A stretch of 64,000 bases of DNA from Lysobacter helvus (GTDB lineage: Bacteria > Pseudomonadota > Gammaproteobacteria > Xanthomonadales > Xanthomonadaceae), in contig NZ_AP024546.1 of the NCBI RefSeq assembly GCF_018406645.1, forward strand, positions 558,001 through 622,000, in the 5' to 3' direction. Positions 58,498 through 64,000 of the stretch are shown here, piece after piece; within the stretch, counting starts at the first letter, position 1; each line of letters starts with the position of its first letter. The notes beneath the pieces were generated by a model. The model worked only from the letters and a program-made list of their open reading frames with translations. It was not told the origin of the DNA and searched no databases. A program made the position numbers and the translations under genes.

Positions 58498-60279
58498 TCA
58501 GGCGGGCCAGCGCAGCAGCAGGCGGTTGACGAGGTCGTGCGGGGTGGAGGCTTCGCCACCGCGCGCGGTAAGGGCCATCGGCGCCGCAGCGTCGTAGCAG
58601 CCGTCGGGCGACTGGCCGGCGACCAGCGCGCCCTTCGCCGCATGCGCGAGCGCAGGATCGACCAACGCAGGATCGGCGCCGCTGAGCAGCAGCACGGCGC
58701 TGTCGGCCGGGGGCAGCGCGGCGAGCAACGTCGCATTCGACGCGAAGCGCAGGCCGTTGACGGATTCCAGCCCGAGTTCGGGCGGCACGATGTACACGTG
58801 CCCGGGCTCGAGCACCGTCGCGGCTTCGGCGAGCGTCACCGGCAGCGAGGCGGCGCGCGCCATCTGCTGCACGAGGCGATCGTAGCGGCCGCCGTCGAGG
58901 CGCTGGCTGATGAGCACGGGGCGCGCGAAGCCGGTCGGCAACGCGGTGAGGATCTGGCGCACTGCATCGGGTCCGCCGATGCCGGCGAGGATCAGCACGG
59001 CGCCGCGCGACACCGCGGCTTCGTCGACCAGCGCGAGCGTGGCGATTTTTTCGTCGAGCGCATCCAGGTGCTGGCGGAACTGCGGCGCGGCGGCTTCGTC
59101 GATCGCCATCGGCGTGGCGACGTGCGGTTCGTCGGTGACGTCGGCGAGCGACAGCGACGAGAAGTCGAGCTTCGCCGGCCTGGCGGTGCTCGCCGCAGCG
59201 GCGGGCGCTTCGATCGGCGCGATGTCGAAGTCGAGGTTCGGCAGTTCCGCCGGCGCGGCGCGCACGGGCGCGACGGCTTCGAGCACGTCGGATTCGGTTT
59301 CGTTCGCGGCGTGCGCACCGAGGTCGCGCATCATCGCGTCGAAGTCGTGCGCCTCGCCTGCATCGTGGCGGAACGACGGGCGCGGCTGGTCCGACAGGCC
59401 TTCCTCGGCCTCGAAGTCCAGCGCGTTGACGTCGTCGGTGAACGCGATGCCGCCGAACGCCGGGGCGTCGGTGGGCGCGTGCTGCACGGTGTCGTGCACC
59501 GGCAATTCGGCGAAGGTCATGTCGCCGAAGGAGATTTCGTCGAGCGCGGTCTCGCCGAAGGCGGGCTCGCTGGCGGGCGTTGCATCGGAAGACGATTGCG
59601 CCACCGAGTCGTCGAACGCGATGTCGTCGAGCGACACCGATTCCATCGACACCGCTTCCATCGACATGTCGGCGGACTGCAGGTCGTCGAGCGACAGCTC
59701 GTCCAGCGCCAGGCCGTCGAGTTCGACGCCTTCCATCACGATCTCGCCGCCCAGGTCGGCGTCGAAGGCCGGCAGTTCGAGCGCCGCTTCGCCGATCACC
59801 GGCTCGCGCGGCACGTCGACGGCGACCGCATCGGCTTCCGCGGCGAACGTGGCGATATCGGCATCCGCGTGGCGCGCTTCCGGCGCTTCGGGACGCCCCG
59901 GCACCAGCAACGCATCGCTTTCGGGTTCGCGCCCCGGCGGCAGCACGTCGGCATGGCGATTCAACTTCGCGGACAGATGGCGCACCCAGCGCGCCGCATC
60001 CCAGCCTTCGCGGCGCGCGGCCAGTTCGGCCTCGTCGAAGATCACGGCCAGCGACGGATCGGACAGCACTTCGTCGAACTTTTCCAGCGCGTCTTCCACC
60101 GCCGGATCCAGCGCGATGAGGATCGTCTGCGCGCGCGCATCGGCGAGCGCGCTGGGTTCGATCATCGCGGGATCGGCTTCGAGCACGATTTCGCCGCCGG
60201 CTTCCTGCAACGCCGAACGCAGGCGTTCGCAGGCTTCACCGGGACGGGCCAGCAGCGCGACGCGACGGGACTCACCCAT
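58498..60279 (-). CDS. chpB: CheB-like protein ChpB with apparently inactive methylesterase domain
   Basis: 593 aa. N-terminal receiver-like segment (about 1-125: [32 protein letters not shown]) lacks a recognisable phospho-Asp motif. A long acidic low-complexity linker (about 130-400, rich in [28 protein letters not shown]). C-terminal CheB-like domain (about 420-593). The region matching the catalytic Ser strand (GASTGGPEA in CheB) reads LAGIGGPDA without Ser; the QHM His region reads SQRLDGG; the Asp motif (LTGMGxDG) reads [12 protein letters not shown]. It therefore looks enzymatically dead. Overlaps the chpA stop by 8 nt. Confidence 0.85.
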
Positions 60280-63200
60280 TCACGCGGACTCCGTCGGCCA
60301 TCTTCTCGGCGATCAGTTCGAACACGTTGCGCAGCAATTCGTGCTCCTGGTACGGCTTGCCCAGGTAACGCTCCACGCCGATGTCGAACGCGCGCTGGCG
60401 ATGCTTCTCGCCGGTACGCGAGGTGATCATCATGATCGGCACGTTGCGGAAGCGCGGGTCGGCCTTCATCGCGGTCGCGAGTTCGTAACCGTCCATGCGC
60501 GGCATTTCGATGTCGAGCAGCATCAGGTCGGGCACGCGCTCTTCCAGGCGTTCCAGGGCGTCCACGCCATCCTTCGCGGTGGTGACTTCGAAGTTGTGGC
60601 GCTCCAGCACGCGGCCGGTGACCTTGCGCATCGTGACCGAGTCGTCGACCACCATGACCAGCGGCACGTGGCGCTTTTCGGGCTGCGGCGCCGGCACGGT
60701 GTCACGCGGCAACGCGGCCTGGCGGCGCACGAGCGGAGCGACGTCGAGGATCACGACGACGGAGCCGTCGCCCATGATCGTCGCGCCGAAGATGCCCGGC
60801 ACCGAACCCACCTGCGGACCCACCGGCTTCACCACGATTTCGCGATTGCCGAGCACCTGGTCGATGCTGACCGCCGCGCGCAGTTCACCGGCGCGGATCA
60901 GCAGCAGCGGCATCTGCAGCTGGCCTTCGGCCTTCGCGGCCGCGTGGCCGAGCAGCAGGCCGAGATCGTGCAGTGCGTACTCTTCGCCGCCGTACGCGTA
61001 CGTGGCGTCGTTCTTCGCCAGCGCTTCGCGCGTCACGCGGCCCACGCCGCGCACCGAGGCGATCGGCACGGCATACGTGGTTTCGCCGATCTTGACGAAC
61101 ACCGCCTGCGTGACCGCGAGCGTCTGCGGCAGGCGCAGGGTGAACGTGGTGCCTTCGCCCTGCTTCGACTTGATGTCCAGCGCGCCGCCGAGCTGGCGGA
61201 CTTCGCTGGCGACCACGTCCATGCCCACGCCGCGGCCGGCGAGGCGGCTGACGGTGTCGGCGGTGGAGAAGCCCGGCTCCATGATCAGCGCGTCGAGGTC
61301 GGCGTCGGCCAGCACCGCATCGCTGCGGATCAGGCCGCGCTCTTCGGCGCGTTTGCGGATGGCGTTGCGGTTGAGGCCCGCGCCGTCGTCGCCGACTTCC
61401 AGCACGACTTCCGACCCTTCGCGGCGCACCGCGATGCGGATCGTGCCTTCTTCGCTCTTCTTGTGCTTCCTGCGGTCGCCCGGCGATTCCAGGCCGTGCG
61501 CGACCGCGTTGCGCAGCATGTGTTCCAGCGGCGCGGTCATGCGCTCGAGCACGTTGCGATCGAGTTCGCCCTGCGCACCGTCCAGCTTCAGCTGCACGTT
61601 CTTGCCGGTGTCGGCCGCCGCCTGGCGGACGACGCGGCGCAGGCGCGGCACGAGCGCATCGAACGGCACCATGCGCGTGCGCATGAGGCCTTCCTGCAGT
61701 TCCGAGCTCACGCGCGACTGCTGGAGCAGCAGCGTTTCGTACTGGCGCGTCAGGTCTTCCAGCGACCCCTGCAGCGACGACATGTCCGCCGCGGACTCGG
61801 CCAGGCCTCGGCTGAGCTGCTGCAGCGTGGAGAAGCGGTCGAGTTCCAGCGGATCGAACGTCTGGTCCGCGGTGTCGTGCTCGCGCTGGTAGCGCGCGAT
61901 GATCTGCGCTTCGGTTTCGATGTCCAGGCGGCGCAGCTGGTCGCGGAGGCGCTGGTTGGTCGCTTCCATTTCGCCCATGGCGCCGCGGAAGTTGCCGAGC
62001 TGCTGTTCCAGGCGCGACCGGTAGATCGCGACTTCGCCCGCGTAGTTGACGAGGCGGTCCAGCAGGTCGGCGCGGATGCGCACCTGTTCCTGCGGGGCGC
62101 GCACGCCGATGTCGTCGTCGTCGCCGGCGCCCGCGTCCATGATCGGCGCGGACAGCGGCTTGAGTTCCGCCTTCGGCGCGGCCCACGTCTGGCGCGTGTC
62201 GACTTCCGCCGCCGGCTCGTACGTGCGGCCCTTGGCGCGCGCGTCGAACTGGGCGATCAGCTGTTCCGGCATCGCGATCGCGCGGCGTTCGCCGACGCGG
62301 GTGACCATCGCGTGCAGGCGGTCGAAACCGCGCTCGAGCAGCGGAATGCCATCGCGTCCCAGCTCGCTGCGGTGTTCGACCACCGCTTCGAGCAGCGACT
62401 CCATCGCGTGGCCGAGTTCGCCCACGGCCATGATGCCGGCCATGCGCGCACCGCCCTTGAGCGTGTGCAGGTCGCGCTGCAGGCCGACCAGGTGTTCGCG
62501 TTCGCCCGGTGCGTTGCGCAGCTGCGCGAGCAGGCCGTCGGAATGGTCGAGCAGGTCGACGCCTTCCTCGACGAAGATGTCGACGAGTTCGGGGTCGAGG
62601 TCGGTGAGGTCGAGCGCTTCGTCCGGATCGTTGGCCGAGGCCACGGCGTCGGCCAGCATCTGGGCGACGGCGGGTTCGGCGTCTTCGGATTCGGCGACGG
62701 TGGCTTCGACGGCGGGTTCTTCGACGACGGGTTCTTCGACCGCAGGTGCTTCGGCTTCAGGCTGCGGCGCCGCGGCGTCCTCGGCGAGCTTCGCGGCCTC
62801 GGCGGCCGCGTGTTCGCGGGCCAGGCGCTCGGCTTCGTATTCCGCTTCCAGCGCGGCGTATTCGGCTTCCTCGGCGAGGCGGACGCGTTCGGCTTCGGCT
62901 TCGGCGGCGACGCGTTCGGATTCGACGCGTTCTGCTTCGGCGCGTTCGGCTTCGGCGCGTTCGGCTTCGGCGCGTTCGGCTTCGGCGCGCTGGGCCTCGA
63001 GGCGTTCGGCTTCGAGGCGTTCCGCTTCGACGCGTTCGGTCTCGGCGCGCTCGGCGTCGAGGCGTTCGGCTTCGATGCGCTCGGCTTCGAGGCGTTCGGC
63101 TTCCAGCAGCAAGGCTTCCACGCGCTGGGCTTCGGCGCGCTCGGACTCGGCGCGTTCGGCTTCCAGGCGCTCGGATTCGATGCGTTCGAATTCGGCACGT

Positions 63201-64000
63201 TCCGCTTCGAGGCGCTGCGCTTCGGCGTGTTCGGCTTCCGCACGCGCCGCTTCGGCGCGTTCGGCCTCCGCACGATCGGCTTGCGCACGCTCGGCGTCGA
63301 GGCGTTGCGTTTCCAGGCGCTCGGCTTCGACGCGCTCGGCTTCGAGCAACGACGCTTCCAGGCCCGCCTGCGCTTCGATCGCCGCGGCGTCGGCCGCATC
63401 GCCTTCGAGTTCGAACTCTTCCAGCGCCAGGCCGTCGCTGCCGACGTCGAACGACGCGGCATCCAGCGACGCGGTGTCCAGCGTGCCGTCGAGCACGATG
63501 TCTTCGACGACGACGTGGTCGGCGCCACCTTCGGCGGCTTCGTTGATCGGCAGCCCGGCATCGACCGGGATCGCATCGGACAGGTCGAGGAACGCCGACA
63601 GGTCTTCGCCCTGCAGCGTGACTTCCTCGACGGCGTGGTCCGACGTGTCCTGCAACGCAAGGCCGGTGTCGACCGGCGTGGCTTCGGCGAGGTCGGTGAA
63701 TTCGCGCAGGTCGGCGACGCCGGCCAGTTCGAGGTTCGCGTGTTCCAGCGCGTCGAGGTCGGCTTCGACCGGTTCGGTCGGCAGCAGCGGCGTCTTCGCT
63801 TCCGGCAGTTCGTCGCGCAGCGCGACGACCTGGCGGGCCAGCGCTTCGAACACCGGCACGCGCGGCGCGTCGGTCTGCAACGCGGTGACGGTGCGGCGGA
63901 TGGCTTCCGCCGTGGCGGCCAGCGCGGCCACGCCCTGCGCCGTCGGCAATGCATGCGCGGCGAGCAGACGCTTGATGTAGGTCTCGGCCGGACCGGTGAC
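60272..64000 (-). CDS. chpA: ChpA-type chemotaxis histidine kinase, N-terminus cut by window edge
   Basis: The frame is open from the right edge (about 1,242 codons visible). From N to C: acidic Hpt-like segments, a 29-fold pentapeptide repeat (62912-63346), a Pro/Glu linker, an Hpt domain with [24 protein letters not shown] (phospho-His near 62464), a dimerisation segment, HATPase with N-box [33 protein letters not shown] and [11 protein letters not shown], a CheW domain ([23 protein letters not shown]), and a receiver ([11 protein letters not shown], phospho-Asp in [12 protein letters not shown], Lys in YLGKPYQ). It controls type IV pilus twitching and surface sensing. The left 3' end is complete; more Hpt domains are expected beyond the edge. 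Confidence 0.93.
62912..63346 (-). repeat. 29 tandem 15-bp repeats encoding (A/L)EAER pentapeptides
   Basis: Exactly 435 bp, or 29 units of five residues, variants of [10 protein letters not shown] with the last four AEAER units identical in protein. Alternating Glu and Arg at i/i+3 and i/i+4 should make a stable single alpha-helix about 145 residues long. DNA units are similar but diverged, so expansion is partly old. It separates the N-terminal Hpt region from the kinase part of ChpA. Confidence 0.9.

Follow-up and report, generated by a model that had tools for sequence, protein, structure and literature searches.

The 64,000-nucleotide window analysed here (Lysobacter helvus, contig NZ_AP024546.1, positions 558,001 to 622,000) ends inside chpA, the gene for a CheA-type hybrid kinase that belongs to the type IV pilus system and steers pilus-driven movement, in which a long array of Glu- and Arg-rich pentapeptides lies in the linker ahead of the last Hpt domain. 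The window holds the 3' part of the gene (60272..64000, minus strand, as are all features of the gene given below), defined by the open frame, the full frame and Pfam. The gene start lies past the window end, at genome position 624637, and the full frame (G000:C1:618275-624637) encodes 2121 residues. Pfam recognises Hpt in four stretches, H-kinase_dim (residues 1517–1572), HATPase_c (1703–1839), CheW (1844–1972) and REC (1994–2104). A piecewise search places the Hpt domains at about residues 19–115, 653–742, 825–915 and 1351–1448, and residues 250–600, searched in pieces, have no Pfam match. With Hpt, H-kinase_dim, HATPase_c, CheW and REC all in one chain, the ChpA-like identity proposed in a preliminary description of the window is borne out.

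The linker is flanked on its N-terminal side by the Hpt of residues 825–915, the C-terminal part of which falls within the window (63893..64000, Pfam Hpt E 3.7e-07; the remainder is outside). On the kinase side of the linker stands the last Hpt (residues 1351–1448, His at residue 1391; 62294..62587, Pfam Hpt E 1.7e-13), followed by the kinase core and receiver with H-kinase_dim, HATPase_c, CheW and REC (60326..62089, Pfam).

The array consists of 29 in-register pentapeptides (62912..63346), encoding ChpA residues 1098–1242, with the consensus [ALVI]EAER. The preliminary description had given an unbroken run of 29 such units; its coordinates are right to the base and a single register is kept throughout, and the exactness was overstated, since 14 of the 29 pentapeptides match strictly and one unit, VEALL, has no Arg. 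Counted position by position, the 29 units have A/L/V/I in 29, E in 26 (E or D in 28), A in 23, E in 22 and R in 27. When residues 1081–1290 were shuffled 10,000 times, the best register reached three exact units, compared with 14 in the real sequence. Tandem Repeats Finder reports a 15-bp array at 62882–63345 with 31.1 copies and 73% matches. In the window's own genome, the array matches nothing else at E ≤ 0.001 among the 150 of 218 first-look candidates that were scored. Long plus-strand frames overlap the array; an antisense or chance frame was rejected, as the Pfam domains and the conservation belong to the minus-strand frame.

The DNA copies have diverged, with 25 distinct units among the 29, and the protein pattern is kept. 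Over all copy pairs, the proportions of synonymous and nonsynonymous differences (pS and pN) are 0.469 and 0.208, and the nonsynonymous-to-synonymous rate ratio (dN/dS) is 0.33, falling to 0.18 when the variable first codon is left out; the selection of units by a loose pattern biases this ratio somewhat downward. The ratio ranges from 0 to 0.44 in 12 of 16 loci, the other four (L011, L141, L022 and L120) having no array by the pattern and thus no value. Some species carry young arrays; in L017, the 19 units comprise two distinct DNA units.

Predicted helix and its flanks

AlphaFold2, given the window protein aligned with 13 relatives, models one unbroken helix in model residues 201–403, which correspond to ChpA residues 1080–1282 (62792..63400). 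The predicted local distance difference test score (pLDDT), taken by blocks, is 83–96 across model residues 211–380 and 65–77 nearer the ends. The 145 residues and 22 nm of the preliminary description give way in the model to a predicted single alpha-helix of 203 residues and ~30 nm. Segments of low confidence, probably flexible, adjoin it on both sides. The N-terminal tether is acidic (residues 980–1079, 63401..63700; pLDDT <50 at model residues 101–134 and 143–200), and the C-terminal tether covers residues 1280–1322 (62672..62800; pLDDT <50 at model residues 401–411, 415–418 and 427–443). With the persistence length of 15 nm given for such helices in the available part of PMC5347031, the 203-residue helix would have a root mean square span of ~23 nm, compared with ~8–12 nm for a chain of equally many residues in the disordered state, as computed with chain-scaling constants. 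Searches with the array segment gave no match among solved structures at E 0.001 and no match in Pfam. Foldseek with the model returned Hpt/CheA P1 and designed four-helix folds, none at E 0.001 or better, and is uninformative on the rod.

Such a helix could also belong to a two-stranded coiled coil, in which the helices of both ChpA dimer subunits pair lengthwise. The window array shows no rise in hydrophobic power at a period of 3.45–3.7 residues (z −1.2), and the same test on controls from the same genome is clear, with z 9.3 for the cytoplasmic part of PilJ and z 2.6–13.3 for five SMC windows. Across the 96 helix-bearing linkers collected from relatives (see below) the median z is −0.84, and in 95 of them z does not exceed 2; the remaining one, L016, has a weak heptad signal (z 2.7). 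Pairs of opposite charges at i+3/i+4 are more frequent than in composition shuffles in the window array (z 4.4) and, at z >2, in 95 of the 96 linkers (median 4.5). The excess is smaller in the coiled-coil controls, yet present (SMC z 1.9–2.9, PilJ 2.4), so it is the size of the excess that sets the array apart in this test. Self-match peaks at a multiple of 5 in 89 of the 96 and at 6, 12, 13 or 26 in the other seven, and never at 7, 11 or 18. In a 100-degree helix geometry, units of 5, 10, 12, 13 and 15 residues build no seam, whereas 18 does so fully and 7 and 11 partly. With the former unit lengths, the Ala/Leu positions would thus shift around the helix from unit to unit and form no continuous sticky seam.

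A single alpha-helix fits these sequence and model features better than a coiled coil, and the preliminary description's choice of a single charged helix agrees with the missing heptad stripe, the charge-pair excess and the one AlphaFold2 helix. Lengthwise pairing would have in its favour that CheA-type kinases dimerise close by (through H-kinase_dim), that designed Ala-rich helices have dimerised (PMC5347031, available part), that Tyr, Leu and Tyr of the Tyr-rich island described below lie at i, i+3 and i+7, and that L016 has its heptad signal. Set against the hydrophobic periodicity and the unit lengths, these points leave it very unlikely in our view.

In our judgement, the odds lean slightly towards the array forming a single alpha-helix, stabilised by Arg and Glu, that serves the ChpA phosphorelay as a stiff spacer. 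Each Arg could pair with the Glu three residues before it and the Glu four residues after it, which would give salt bridges along the rod.

Linkers of related ChpA genes

The kinase core is present (E 1e-60) in 113 of 119 genomes including the window's own. From the other 112 core-matching genomes, 100 were retrieved for comparison, and the named relatives are the best 80 of 188. The 183 core loci (L numbers) yielded 156 distinct genes after exclusion of L001 and L007, which are parts of the window's own gene, of 20 duplicate cores, and of L055, L096, L097, L157 and L183, in which no last Hpt was found. The linker end was set 45 residues ahead of the last-Hpt His. A helix-like run was called from 25-residue windows with at least six Glu, at least three Arg/Lys, no Pro or Gly and at least 15 Ala/Glu/Arg/Lys, with a total of at least 50; L074 (47), L100 (36) and L065 (28) fall just under this rule. 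By this rule 96 of the 156 genes have a helix-like run and 60 lack it or are unreadable. The label 'no helix' is unsafe for L054 because a stretch of X interrupts its linker.

On a quick tree of the kinase core alone, on which L048, L075, L078, L098, L101–L103 and L139 were left unlabelled, the helix takes six changes. A clade of 92 rows, comprising Lysobacter (the window's genus), Luteimonas, Thermomonas and Vulcaniibacterium, has the helix in 91 of 91 readable rows, L139 being cut off; its support in the Shimodaira–Hasegawa-like approximate likelihood ratio test (SH-aLRT) is 94, just below the starred level. The adjoining clade of 14 rows has it in none of 13 labelled rows, L048 being the unlabelled one. 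Five helix rows (L042, L061, L062, L064 and L107) lie outside the main clade, and the places of L061 and L107, both on long branches, are unsure. The helix arrangement is a clade trait and not peculiar to the window's genome; gain and loss of the helix are indistinguishable on this tree. The ChpA frame of L048 (G021) is just 1064 residues long though the region could hold a full gene, possibly owing to a frameshift or an assembly error.

Comparison of repeat counts across related chpA genes, which the preliminary description had proposed as a check, brings out wide variation between species. The longest helix run per gene spans 54–506 residues (n = 96), with quartiles of 143, 185 and 234 in the 84 complete linkers, and a fixed ruler is ruled out by this span. 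Sister pairs (n = 20) are 0 to 193 residues apart in total helix length. In the closest pair, L022/L120 (core distance 0.009), the helix differs by 15 residues and the whole linker by 10 in the opposite direction; the helix differs by 193 residues in L121/L122 (core distance 0.039) and by 0 in L149/L155 (core distance 0.22). Two Luteimonas with nearly equal cores have helices of 506 and 313 residues. Length drifts and the charge pattern stays. At nine loci (L034, L117, L140, L147, L158, L162, L163, L166 and L170) the helix run begins at the first residue of the open frame at a contig end; these loci seem broken inside the array, so repeat counts from draft genomes may be unreliable.

Complete linkers have a median length of 328.5 residues with the helix (n = 84) and 283 without it (n = 52), and the ranges in the two groups, without and with the helix, are 94–550 and 129–589 residues. 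The preliminary description had raised the case of orthologues that keep the same spacing with unrelated sequence. Linkers without the helix are indeed of similar length and unrelated sequence, and the spacing is constant in neither group. The Arg share is 11.8% in helix-bearing linkers versus 1.5% in the others, Pro and Gly together make up 4.8% versus 12.5%, and acidic residues 30.7% versus 28.4%. Strong repetition, with a local self-match of at least 0.75, marks 10 of the 51 readable helix-free linkers (L040, L044, L057, L059, L077, L082, L086, L091, L100 and L106); the other 41 are less repetitive or not at all. L106, for instance, carries (EP)n, L091 has (EA)n and L059 has (AETE)n, and (EAAAA)n, (EAIEA)n and (ELTEPV)n also occur. 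Extreme simple repeats occupy the linker site ahead of the last Hpt in L106, L091, L059, L077, L057, L040 and L082. Glu-rich repeats have thus arisen at the linker site in several lineages, the helix being the Arg-balanced form that one clade has fixed.

A linker that readily gains tandem repeats may be filled by any soluble charged low-complexity sequence, with the helix having no function of its own. This is the main rival to the stiff spacer and is left standing by the ninefold length spread. The strongly repetitive linkers without the helix and the drift between the two Luteimonas argue for such filler. The charge-balanced helix, on the other hand, has been kept in every readable row of the main clade despite turnover of units and length, the Arg share differs strongly between the two kinds of linker, and the copies point to protein-level constraint, though pattern-chosen units bias the ratio downward. 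On balance we regard mere filler as rather improbable.

The second peculiarity of these linkers is a Tyr-rich island. In the window protein it was found by pattern match at residues 1256–1276 (62810..62872), with the core EYAALEAEY at residues 1259–1267. The island (EYARLEAEY), like EEAEYARLEAEYAEADRIAREQ, is present in 52 of the 96 helix-bearing linkers, with a near match in L010, and the pattern occurs in none of the 60 genes without the helix, eight of which have no readable linker. It is doubled in L062, L143, L152, L158, L162 and L177. Since the pattern itself fixes most core positions, independent evidence of conservation comes only from the remaining ones; at these free positions, 58 islands have E at −3 in 95%, R at +3 in 84%, A at +6 in 95% and A at +9 in 88%. 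With Y, L and Y at heptad spacing, the island could be a short contact site. It could instead be the ancestral seed of the arrays.

If it is a contact site, the helix might mainly carry the island as a putative binding site for a pole or pilus protein, with the repeats just placing it. Such docking would be in keeping with the confinement of Tyr (115 of the 122 Tyr among 20,745 helix residues fall within the island), with its location 46–302 residues ahead of the linker end, and with its presence in two rows placed outside the main clade, L061 and L062. It is harder to reconcile with the 44 helix-bearing linkers that do not match the pattern (L010 being a near match), with the 14 changes that the island takes on the tree among the 84 complete helix linkers, and with a possible origin as the seed of the arrays, and we think it quite unlikely.

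Possible role in the phosphorelay

As a stiff spacer, a flexibly tethered rod would part the upstream Hpts from the last Hpt, the kinase and the receiver. The preliminary description had the N-terminal Hpt modules held away from the kinase core. The upstream Hpts are indeed separated by the linker, and the Hpt of residues 1351–1448 lies on the kinase side. Because the tethers at both ends are of low confidence and probably flexible, the helix would separate the modules without fixing their orientation. As the rod lies between the other Hpts and the last one, which adjoins the kinase, phosphate should have to cross it on the way to the upstream Hpts, in cis or in trans. According to the available part of PMC5812489, autophosphorylation in Pseudomonas aeruginosa ChpA occurs on Hpt 4–6. 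The receiver of that protein accepts phosphate from Hpt 5 and 6 and exchanges it reversibly with Hpt 2–6, and PilG and PilH obtain theirs mainly from Hpt 2 and 3.

When an ER/K helix is extended from 10 to 30 nm, the effective concentration of its partners falls from 10 uM to 100 nM (PMC5552854, available part), so a 30-nm rod should weaken phosphotransfer in cis. In ChpA the rod would lower the effective concentration of the receiver and the upstream Hpts of one chain and would favour transfer between neighbouring ChpA molecules. A broader proposal, that ChpA linkers are an evolvable, stiffness-encoded control element in which a charge-balanced single helix, fixed in one clade, changes length by repeat units and so sets the balance of intra- and inter-chain phosphotransfer, and in which the Tyr island docks a partner, strikes us as unlikely.

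Several points weigh against the stiff spacer. The ninefold variation in helix length argues against a tuned distance. The 52 complete linkers that lack the helix (one of them, L054, unreadable) presumably connect the modules all the same, so a stiff linker is not a general requirement. In L121, the longest relative, the AlphaFold2 helices of 212 and 253 residues speak for a rod, yet a low-confidence break separates them. AlphaFold2 is also inclined to draw charged low-complexity sequence as helix, and it was run on the monomer alone. Helix residues contain on average 0.3% Lys, i.e. Arg almost without Lys, and are rich in Ala; in the available part of PMC5347031, designed helices of 7-residue repeats that were Arg-rich or Ala-rich aggregated or dimerised, and the window helix, Ala-rich and with Arg almost without Lys, resembles them. 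Within a ChpA dimer the two chains might still pair, and the Tyr island has heptad spacing. Finally, the upstream and last Hpts are matched to the Hpt numbers of P. aeruginosa by order only.

Related systems and neighbouring genes

The predicted rod resembles the ER/K single alpha-helix (SAH) domains of myosins and other proteins in being charged, Glu/Arg-rich and predicted as an uninterrupted helix without a heptad stripe that joins two functional parts. Unlike them, it has a regular 5-residue unit and Arg almost without Lys, is located in a bacterial kinase and, across relatives, reaches helix-like runs of up to 506 residues. In the parts available, PMC5347031 gives putative SAHs of 40 to about 200 residues, and PMC5378345 gives the longest myosin SAHs as about 200 residues and SAHs as known in bacteria. 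Engineered ER/K linkers (SPASM sensors; PMC5552854, available part) are alike in that the length of the helix governs the effective concentration at which two tethered partners meet; they differ in being designed cell sensors of 10–30 nm, whereas the ChpA rod is natural and its effect is inferred.

The kinase itself is like other ChpA and type IV pilus (Tfp)-class CheA kinases in its multiple Hpt domains, kinase core, CheW and C-terminal receiver, and in having MCP, CheW-like, response-regulator and CheB-like neighbours. It has four Pfam-recognised Hpt, as against the eight or nine Xpt domains ascribed to P. aeruginosa ChpA in the part of the literature available. The words 'repeat', 'coiled', 'low complexity' and 'disordered' do not occur in the available main text of a paper on CheA architecture (PMC10782961), and no ChpA repeat or helix rod, nor the letters of the repeat, were found in titles and abstract starts of open-licence PubMed Central (PMC) articles. 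SAHs and ChpA are each already known.

The helical middle domain of TolA provides a further likeness, as a TolA of another, unrelated family (P0002, TIGR02794 over its cut-off; L196:1180-2472, minus strand) has a long run of nearly pure LEAER units. The motif thus arose or was used elsewhere too; no common descent of the TolA and ChpA arrays is claimed. TolA is a periplasm-spanning envelope protein, unlike ChpA. A class-wide search with the array, which scored at most 17 candidates per genome and is thus not exhaustive, gave matches at E 1e-12 in three of 229 genomes, one of them the window's own. Of the other two matches, one is a TolA and the second is a PEAET/AEAET repeat, different from this array.

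If the stiff spacer is real, ChpA would be a naturally occurring equivalent of the engineered ER/K linkers, with a rod that parts phosphate-receiving modules from those that hand phosphate on. Species with differing rod lengths would form a ready series for the effects of linker length and stiffness on a phosphorelay, and the Arg-only pattern with its 5-residue unit may be nature's way round the aggregation of Arg-rich designs with 7-residue repeats (PMC5347031, available part).

Upstream of chpA are genes for a methyl-accepting chemotaxis protein (MCP), a CheW-like protein and a response regulator; the MCP protein scores 144.1 bits with MCPsignal and 23.1 bits with the PilJ N-terminal model, under the cut-off of 26.6 for that model. 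Downstream are genes for a protein with a CheB_methylest domain and a CheW-like protein. Because these are the genes expected of a pil-chp cluster, the kinase can fairly be called ChpA. The CheB-like neighbour has an acidic pentad-like stretch of its own (59632-59721, minus strand) with two 15-bp repeats, and the ChpA linker directly ahead of the helix contains acidic pentads similar to those of this neighbour.

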